A stretch of 64,000 bases of DNA from an uncultured Acidobacteriota bacterium (GTDB lineage Bacteria; Acidobacteriota; Thermoanaerobaculia; UBA5066). The position numbers and the translations under genes were made by a program. The DNA is taken from contig CAIMWE010000076.1 in the NCBI GenBank assembly GCA_903845115.1, positions 1 to 64,000 on the forward strand, in the 5' to 3' direction. Positions 44,068 to 45,960 of the stretch are shown here, one piece after another (positions within the stretch are counted from its first letter, which is position 1; the number at the start of each line of letters is the position of its first letter). The notes below the pieces were generated by a model. It saw nothing but the letters and a program-made list of their open reading frames with translations. It was not told the origin of the DNA and did no database searches.

Positions 44068-45960
44068 TCACTTCCCTCCGACGCCGTTCGCGTCGTAGGC
44101 CGGGAGCGGAGCGCCGAAGCCGAGCTGGGTCCGGGCCGCCGCCGGGAGAGGCTCCTCCTCGGGAAACCGTTCGGGGGCCGGCCGGAACGACGGCAGCGGG
44201 ATCGCCTTGCCACCCGAGTAGACCGGGTGGCGGCCGCGCGACTTGTACCACTCGGAGAGGGTGGCCGTCTGGTACATCTCCTCGATGATCTTCCGCCACC
44301 CGGCACCCGTGTTGTACGCGCAGAAGGAGATCTCCCCGAGCTGCGTCCCGTACGGGATGATGCACATCTCCGTCCGGCGGAAGTCGTAGTTGAAGAGGTC
44401 CTGGAACCACATGCCGGCCACGAGGAGGACCCTCCACGGGTAGCGGCCCGAGCTCGCGATCCCCATGCTCTTCCCGGTGTGGCCGTCCATCACCTTCAGC
44501 GTCTCCCAGATGCCGAGGTTCGAGGGGACCCCGTCCGGGCGGATGTTCCGCGCGACGGCGAGCGCGGCCTGCAGGACGGTCCAGAAACGCCCGCGCGCCG
44601 AGTCGGTGATCAGCTGGAAGTCGCGCAGGAGGCGGTCCGCGTCCAGGACCTGGGTCACCGGGACGGCCTGGCCCGTCTCGGGGCGGACCAGGAGCATCGT
44701 CGCGATGCCGCAGTTCGGGTGGCAGCCGCACTTGAGCGACCCCCACTGGGCGTCGAGCCCGCCCAGGAGGTCGCGGAGGTCCGAGAAGGGGCCCGACGCG
44801 GAGAGCGGGTACCAGTCCCGGAGCGGCTCCCCGATCCCGGCCTGGGCCTTCACGTCGTGGGCCAGGTTCGCGAGCGTGTAACGCTGCGCCTTCCGGGTCT
44901 CGTCGTCGACCTCCTCGTCCCGGCCCGTGAACGAGACCGGCTGGAACGAGAGCGCGTTGATCTTGTCGATGTTCGCGATGGCGAACCGGATGATCTCCCC
45001 GACCTGGCCGTTGTTGACTCCGTTGACGATCGTGATCACGAGGGTGACGTCGATTCCCGCTGCCTTGAGGTTGTCCAGCGCCTGGAGCTTGACGTCGAAG
45101 AGGTTCGAGACGAGGCGGTGCTCGTTGTGCTCGTTTCCGACCCCGTCGAACTGGAGGTAGACCAGCCGGAGCCCCGCCTCGTAAGCCGCCTTCGCGAATT
45201 CGGGCTCCTGGGCGAACCGGATCCCGTTGGAGGCGCACTGGACCGAGAAGTACCCGATCTCGCGGGCGTACTTGACCGCGTCGAAGAACCAGGGCGAGAT
45301 GGTGGGCTCGCCCCCGGAGAACTGAACCGACATCTGCCGCCGGGGCTTGACCGACGCCGCGTTGTCGAGGATCTCCCGGATGTCGGACCACTCGAGCTCG
45401 TGAACGTACCCGACCTGGTTCGCGTCCATGAAGCACGGGTTGCACATCATGTTGCAGCGGTTCGTCAGGTCGACGGTCAGGACCGCGCCGCGCCCGTACC
45501 GGATCGCCGCCGATCCGTGGTCGTGCAGGGAGTCCTTCCCCATCCGGACGTCGCGGCCGAAGAAGTTCTCCTCCAGACGGGCGAAGAACTTCGCGTCCGA
45601 CGCCATCAGGTCCTCGAACAGCCCGTGCTTCGGGCAGGTCTTCACCATCCAGATCTCGTTCCCGCGCTGGACGATGTCCGCCGCGATCTCGCCGGGATGC
45701 CCCTCGATCAGCTCGCGGAGGTCGGTCTCTCCCCGGATGATGGCGTCGCGGACCTCCCGGGTGCAGGTCGGGCAGAGGGAGTCCGTCCGGCGCGGGAACC
45801 CGAGGGGCGGCCTGGACTTTTCAGCGCTCTTGGGAAGCGGTTCCGGGGACCACGAGGGCTGAAAGCTACGGGCCGGGACTCGACGGTTCACCCACTGGAA
45901 ACCGTTCCAGGCGGCATTCGCCGCGCCACGCACTGCTCCATAGAGATGCCCACGAATCAT
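44068..45960 (-). CDS. COG1964-type radical SAM protein, resembling tetraether/membrane-spanning lipid synthases
   Basis: The 630-residue protein has an N-terminal zinc/rubredoxin-like element: SLCPTC (C63, C66) and KTCPKHG (C109, H112). The radical SAM motif is TNRCNMMCNPCF (C169, C173, C176) with QFSGGEPTISPWF. Additional cysteines occur in LKCGCHPNCGIATMLL and near the C-terminus (EMCIIPYG...SFCAYNTG). This layout matches the MJ0619/Tes family, and bacterial relatives (Mss) join lipid tails. Acidobacteriota make membrane-spanning iso-diabolic acid, so that role is attractive but unproven. ATG 45960 with GGAGG upstream is preferred over a longer in-frame opening at 46056. Confidence 0.7.
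   Translation of the reverse strand: MIRGHLYGAVRGAANAAWNGFQWVNRRVPARSFQPSWSPEPLPKSAEKSRPPLGFPRRTDSLCPTCTREVRDAIIRGETDLRELIEGHPGEIAADIVQRGNEIWMVKTCPKHGLFEDLMASDAKFFARLEENFFGRDVRMGKDSLHDHGSAAIRYGRGAVLTVDLTNRCNMMCNPCFMDANQVGYVHELEWSDIREILDNAASVKPRRQMSVQFSGGEPTISPWFFDAVKYAREIGYFSVQCASNGIRFAQEPEFAKAAYEAGLRLVYLQFDGVGNEHNEHRLVSNLFDVKLQALDNLKAAGIDVTLVITIVNGVNNGQVGEIIRFAIANIDKINALSFQPVSFTGRDEEVDDETRKAQRYTLANLAHDVKAQAGIGEPLRDWYPLSASGPFSDLRDLLGGLDAQWGSLKCGCHPNCGIATMLLVRPETGQAVPVTQVLDADRLLRDFQLITDSARGRFWTVLQAALAVARNIRPDGVPSNLGIWETLKVMDGHTGKSMGIASSGRYPWRVLLVAGMWFQDLFNYDFRRTEMCIIPYGTQLGEISFCAYNTGAGWRKIIEEMYQTATLSEWYKSRGRHPVYSGGKAIPLPSFRPAPERFPEEEPLPAAARTQLGFGAPLPAYDANGVGGK

Follow-up and report, generated by a model that had tools for sequence, protein, structure and literature searches.

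A Tes-type radical SAM protein without the N-terminal auxiliary-cluster cysteines as a candidate iso-diabolic acid enzyme of Acidobacteriota

The archaeal tetraether synthase Tes joins lipids at their terminal carbons (PMC8941075, PMC9433317). Four metal sites have been described in the M. jannaschii (Mj) enzyme: a rubredoxin-like site (C9/C12/C33/H36), an N-terminal cluster (C73/C77/C80 plus a His), the S-adenosylmethionine (SAM) cluster and a C-terminal cluster (Lloyd et al., PMC9433317). The C-terminal cluster lies near the substrate and is the favoured site of the observed carbon-sulfur intermediate; its named ligand is the labile Met439 (PMC9433317), the three Cys ligands being assigned here by alignment. 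For Mss of Thermotogota and Bacillota the same overall reaction has been proposed (PMC13274423), in which fatty acyl chains would be coupled tail to tail, giving (iso-)diabolic acid. The condensing enzyme for iso-diabolic acid has been called 'still unknown' (PMC10087280). Here, we analyzed a Tes-like radical SAM gene (44068..45960, reverse strand) in a 64,000-nucleotide stretch of contig CAIMWE010000076.1 from an uncultured acidobacterium, hereafter the window, together with the protein subfamily to which its product belongs. The candidacy of this subfamily is not new, since homologues of Tes in bacteria had been put forward by Zeng et al. as candidates for the synthesis of branched glycerol dialkyl glycerol tetraethers (brGDGTs; PMC8941075). 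In the literature examined, we did not find stated the subfamily as a defined unit, its missing N-terminal cluster, its added helix, or its distribution over the host order and the Polyangiaceae.

A bacterial relative of archaeal Tes

The window protein is a bacterial relative of archaeal Tes (MJ0619), a kinship that an earlier note had proposed from the sequence and that is borne out by profile, tree and fold. The gene is intact and reads from 45960 down to 44068, encoding 630 amino acids plus a stop codon. This is the open reading frame (ORF) that the earlier note had located, and C63/C66, C109/H112, the C-x3-C-x2-C site and the extra C-terminal cysteines that it listed are all present. Its designation as Tes-like combines the ORF with profile and PDB matches. 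Pfam profiles matched the radical SAM domain (PF04055, residues 165-327, E 1e-20) and, over the cut-off, the HMPTM zinc ribbon (PF23545, residues 56-121, E 7e-15). Among NCBIfam profiles the best match was Tes (NF045702; E 6.5e-99), although its 331.7 bits fall short of the curated equivalog cut-off of 450 bits; TrsS (NF045646) came next at 212 bits, not reaching the curated cut-off of 490 bits. A phmmer search of the PDB returned Mj Tes (7TOL, E 1.1e-67, residues 92-573) far ahead of other solved proteins.

An AlphaFold2 model built from 62 subfamily sequences (mean predicted local distance difference test score, pLDDT, 78; predicted template modelling score 0.85), with low confidence around residues 141-190 and 530-580, displayed the Tes fold over its full length. 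It superimposed on 7TOM with a Z score of 31.9 (root-mean-square deviation 3.5, 464 aligned residues), MoaA coming next at Z 18.7, and Foldseek matched it to the Tes structure at E 3.4e-31. Only 7TOM/7TOL stood clear in this comparison, while other radical SAM families aligned to the core alone.

In a 79-row tree, obtained by a quick search and rooted at the midpoint, the subfamily formed one clade (Shimodaira-Hasegawa-like approximate likelihood ratio test, SH-aLRT, 100; stem 2.49). It lay among Mj Tes and the Tes-type proteins of bacteria, whereas the TrsS-like proteins and two further proteins of the host (contig C143) fell outside. Placement among unrelated radical SAM families had been named beforehand as a possible refutation; in this midpoint-drawn tree the subfamily instead sits among Tes-type proteins. 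Because of the midpoint root and the quick search, its derivation from within Tes is likely but not proven; if it holds, the N-terminal cluster would have been lost once, on the subfamily stem.

Relative to the archaeal reference set (Tes or GDGT-MAS: MJ0619, Saci_0703 and MA_1486; NF045702; 7TOL/7TOM), the window protein shares the fold across residues 55-580, the rubredoxin-type site, the SAM cluster, the SAM-binding residues, the C-terminal cluster ligands including the labile Met, and the equivalent of Tyr459. It differs in its low identity (28-29%), in lacking the N-terminal auxiliary-cluster cysteines, and in having an added N-terminal amphipathic helix as well as additional cysteines, C411 and C413. 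Acidobacteriota also contain Tes-type proteins (G020, G257, G167 and others) that have the domain plan and catalytic ligands in common with the subfamily but retain the N-terminal motif CPxxCGLC and fall outside its clade; in the midpoint tree the subfamily branches among them. TrsS and TrsS-like proteins share the N-terminal half with the window protein (rubredoxin site and radical SAM core); those examined keep the N-terminal cluster and mostly lack the full set of C-terminal cluster ligands. The host itself has a tandem Tes/TrsS-like radical SAM pair (G000:C143:2172-4597; L002 and L003) with the N-cluster motifs CPFDCGPC and CPEDCGLC. Such pairs are rare among its relatives, and other partial Tes-profile matches occur in G007 and G012.

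Thermotoga maritima makes diabolic acid. As a control, its proteins contained no match to the Tes profile at E<=1e-20, whereas the window protein matches at 1e-99; the known bacterial Mss is therefore apparently a different branch, as judged from this control. Of the earlier label 'Tes/Mss-like', the Tes-type part stands, with the profile match at E 6.5e-99, and the Mss-type part is not supported.

Metal sites and the added helix

Twelve residues (C63, C66, C109, H112, C169, C173, C176, C411, C413, C417, C533 and C547) were invariant in 81/81 aligned homologues. Given this invariance and the profile and 7TOL matches, the motifs are not chance patterns. On the reverse strand, the alignment places a rubredoxin-type site at 45625..45774 (C63, C66, C109 and H112, corresponding to the Mj ligands C9, C12, C33 and H36; PMC9433317), the radical SAM cluster motif C169-x3-C173-x2-C176 at 45433..45456, and a SAM-binding segment at 44920..44943 (Q340, S343 and R347, corresponding to Mj Q268, S271 and R275; PMC9433317). 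Further downstream lie C411-x-C413-H414-x2-C417 (44710..44730), in which C417 corresponds to Mj C338, and the C-terminal cluster segment (44320..44412) with M517, C533, Y537 and C547 (Mj Met439, C455/456, Tyr459 and C470; Met439 and Tyr459 from PMC9433317). M517 was likewise invariant in all 81 members and Y537 in 55/55 rows. By analogy with Mj Tes, C417, C533 and C547 are the putative ligands of the C-terminal cluster. Mj Tes has neither C411 nor C413, but certain Tes-type proteins of bacteria share one or both.

The N-terminal auxiliary-cluster site (residues 144-151, 45508..45531, reverse strand) is degenerate. The CPxDCGLC motif that marks it in Tes is missing from the window protein, and none of the 81 aligned members keeps any of the three cysteines. 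By comparison, all three were kept in 18/18 Tes-type rows (Mj included) and in 6/6 rows of TrsS-like or host C143 proteins. In the subfamily the position of Mj C73 is variable, C77 is always replaced by His148, and C80 by Ser (53/55 rows) or Ala (2/55; residue 151), while the Gly after C77 is retained. The expectation in the earlier note of three Fe-S sites is not supported, given this absence of ligands in 81/81 sequences, from which two [4Fe-4S] clusters and a rubredoxin-type site are predicted. The degenerate loop also contains an HxH motif (residues 146-148, 45517-45525, reverse strand; H146 in 73/81 and H148 in 81/81), which could bind a mononuclear metal.

Residues 2-27 (45880..45957, reverse strand), absent from Mj Tes, form a subfamily-specific amphipathic helix that was modelled with confidence (pLDDT about 90-96). 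Its hydrophobic moment exceeded that of shuffled sequences at p<0.1 in 97.5% of the 81 members. On the basis of the model we infer that this helix probably touches the membrane peripherally.

Distribution, lipids and proposed function

Subfamily members are 54-93% identical. The gene is present throughout the host order as sampled (19/19 genomes, 64-93% identity), while the other genomes sampled from the host class lack it; one of these, G020, has a different Tes-type protein (38-39% identity). Across the phylum, 186/347 Acidobacteriota genomes gave a match at E<=1e-60; by a count from the table, about 161 of these have the subfamily and about 25 only the other Tes type. In Myxococcota the occurrence is patchy (11/189 genomes, about 6%). 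The best 80 loci of the genome collection came from acidobacteria (Bryobacterales, Blastocatellia, Vicinamibacteria and Terriglobia, the last with Edaphobacter, Granulicella and Acidipila among others) or from myxobacteria (Sorangium, Minicystis, Polyangium and metagenome-assembled genomes, MAGs), apart from one possibly mislabelled MAG assigned to Acidimicrobiia. Plasmid records contained only distant radical SAM matches, at about 30% identity or less. The acidobacterial origin considered in the earlier note agrees with the relatives at 65-80% identity, which are gp7/Holophagales-type MAGs. Since the nearest of these are acidobacterial MAGs at 78-79%, one labelled Holophagales, and a gp7 acidobacterium at 65%, we regard the host as an uncultured member of Acidobacteriota near gp7/Holophagae. 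The subfamily is widespread in family f25, which groups with Acidobacteriaceae, and three two-contig 3.7-Mb genomes carry it besides TrsS-like proteins. Some acidobacterial genomes of f37 and f25 have two copies (L202/L206, L203/L208, L204/L207), and one f37 copy, with CNCHPNC replacing CGCHPNC, forms its own deep branch.

This distribution fits the lipid literature. Iso-diabolic acid has been found in acidobacterial subdivisions (SDs) 1, 3, 4 and 6 and makes up 20-40% of the fatty acids in SD1/SD3 (PMC13274423); it accounts for about 25% in Edaphobacter (PMC11354219) and is also present in Chloracidobacterium (PMC12816986). In the SD1 species Granulicella rosea and Acidipila rosea, the subfamily protein was the sole match to the whole Tes profile, the next matches being confined to the radical SAM core. 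A single Tes homologue (32% identity) was reported by Zeng et al. (PMC8941075) for E. aggregans, which makes both brGDGT and iso-diabolic acid; we infer that this homologue belongs to the subfamily.

Taken with the Tes-type kinship, the fit to SDs 1, 3, 4 and 6 supports the candidate role in iso-diabolic acid synthesis suggested by the earlier note and makes the subfamily the best-placed candidate for the acidobacterial enzyme. We consider it probable, from sequence and model, that the window protein is a lipid-coupling radical SAM enzyme of bacterial type derived from Tes, its most likely reaction being the joining of iso-C15 acyl tails to iso-diabolic acid. SAM would be cleaved at the C169/C173/C176 cluster, and an iso-C15 acyl tail held in a hydrophobic tunnel would lose a hydrogen at its methyl end to the resulting 5'-deoxyadenosyl radical. 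The C-terminal [4Fe-4S] cluster (C417, C533, C547 and the labile M517) may then keep the carbon radical parked on one of its sulfides until a second SAM turnover generates a second tail radical, which would attack the parked carbon and close the C-C bond. The product would be iso-diabolic acid that is still glycerol-bound, and the N-terminal helix would keep the enzyme at the membrane. This chemistry is established for archaeal Tes only; for the window protein, the substrate, product and membrane contact are proposed. Unlike in archaea, an acyl rather than a phytanyl substrate is expected in a bacterial host. The host has no protein with DUF2229, which we take to be the domain carried by the ether-forming enzymes PlsA/Ger and which was detected in the T. 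maritima control; an ester-linked product is therefore expected.

Several observations weigh against this proposal. The score of 331.7 bits lies below the 450-bit Tes cut-off of NF045702, which none of the subfamily genomes exceeds, and no conserved lipid-gene neighbourhood was found around the subfamily gene. Losing the N-terminal cluster could have altered the chemistry. Polyangiaceae carry the gene, and our literature search returned no report of iso-diabolic acid there (for Sorangium, one passing mention). Solibacter usitatus has two Tes homologues and produces brGDGT, yet no iso-diabolic acid was detectable in it (PMC10087280). The correspondence between gene and lipid is also coarse, as the literature reports lipids per subdivision rather than by strain.

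The case of Solibacter bears on an action on ether-linked lipids, in which a Tes-type enzyme would convert iso-C15 diethers to branched glycerol trialkyl glycerol tetraethers and brGDGTs instead of making ester-bound iso-diabolic acid. A diether condensation pathway involving its Tes homologues was proposed for S. usitatus (PMC10087280), and archaeal Tes uses diethers and binds ester lipids too (PMC9433317). We nevertheless think this unlikely for the subfamily: cultured SD1 strains are rich in iso-diabolic acid that acid hydrolysis releases, with little or no brGDGT (PMC13274423, PMC11354219), the gene is far commoner than brGDGT production in culture, and the host lacks a PlsA/Ger-type protein. 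Somewhat less likely still is another radical reaction on lipid tails (methylation-like, thiolation, mid-chain cross-link or cyclisation), with the lost N-terminal cluster marking the change. The replacement of its three cysteines in every member alongside an invariant His148, the long stem branch and the sub-threshold Tes score would all suit such a change. Against it, the cluster favoured as carrier of the carbon-sulfur intermediate in Tes, its Met ligand and the Tyr459 equivalent are all kept, and the role of the N-terminal cluster in Tes itself has been called unknown (PMC9433317).

That an Mss-type enzyme makes the acidobacterial iso-diabolic acid, leaving the window protein a separate function, appears improbable. 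The bacterial enzyme found by experiment is Mss, which was matched in 11/97 acidobacterial Black Sea MAGs (PMC11868695); this is a minority, whereas iso-diabolic acid is common in SD1/SD3, and the subfamily is widespread in f25, close to Acidobacteriaceae. Pterin modification, the first annotation of MJ0619, is very improbable despite a nearby 6-pyruvoyl-tetrahydropterin synthase domain (42798-43205) and the HMPTM-derived name of PF23545, because Lloyd et al. could not confirm that pterins are methylated and observed a lipid pocket (PMC9433317), and the neighbour is kept within the host family only; we rejected a pterin methylase on the published Tes structure.

Gene setting and significance

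The window belongs to a genome of 5.85 Mb in 305 contigs (96% complete). A probable ribosome-binding site, GGAGG (45967..45971, reverse strand), can be read 6 bases before the ATG of the Tes-like gene. On the forward strand, a radical SAM/DUF2344 fusion gene followed directly by a 6-pyruvoyl-tetrahydropterin synthase-like (QueD-type) gene occupies 40285-43205, and a tandem pair of cyclophilin-type peptidyl-prolyl isomerase genes occupies 47796-49122. Rfam and tRNA scans of the window gave no matches. In a gene-neighbourhood comparison, neighbours were common only to small groups of close relatives, so that synteny gives no function.

Palaeothermometers in wide use for soils and lakes are based on branched GDGTs and iso-diabolic acid, whose main known makers are Acidobacteriota, with the coupling enzyme there unproven. 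With one widespread and clearly delimited gene subfamily in hand, cultured strains allow a direct test of the question, and the gene can serve as a marker for tracing producers in metagenomes. More tentatively, we propose that the acidobacterial and myxobacterial Tes clade is the iso-diabolic acid synthase of Acidobacteriota and couples fatty-acyl tails with only two [4Fe-4S] clusters, an invariant His and a Ser now forming the core of its former N-cluster site. If so, the N-terminal cluster would be dispensable for sp3-sp3 coupling, and membrane-spanning lipids would be predicted in Polyangiaceae (Sorangium, Polyangium, Minicystis) and in uncultured gp7-type acidobacteria. The natural loss of this auxiliary cluster also offers a test of its role in Tes, which its discoverers called unknown (PMC9433317).
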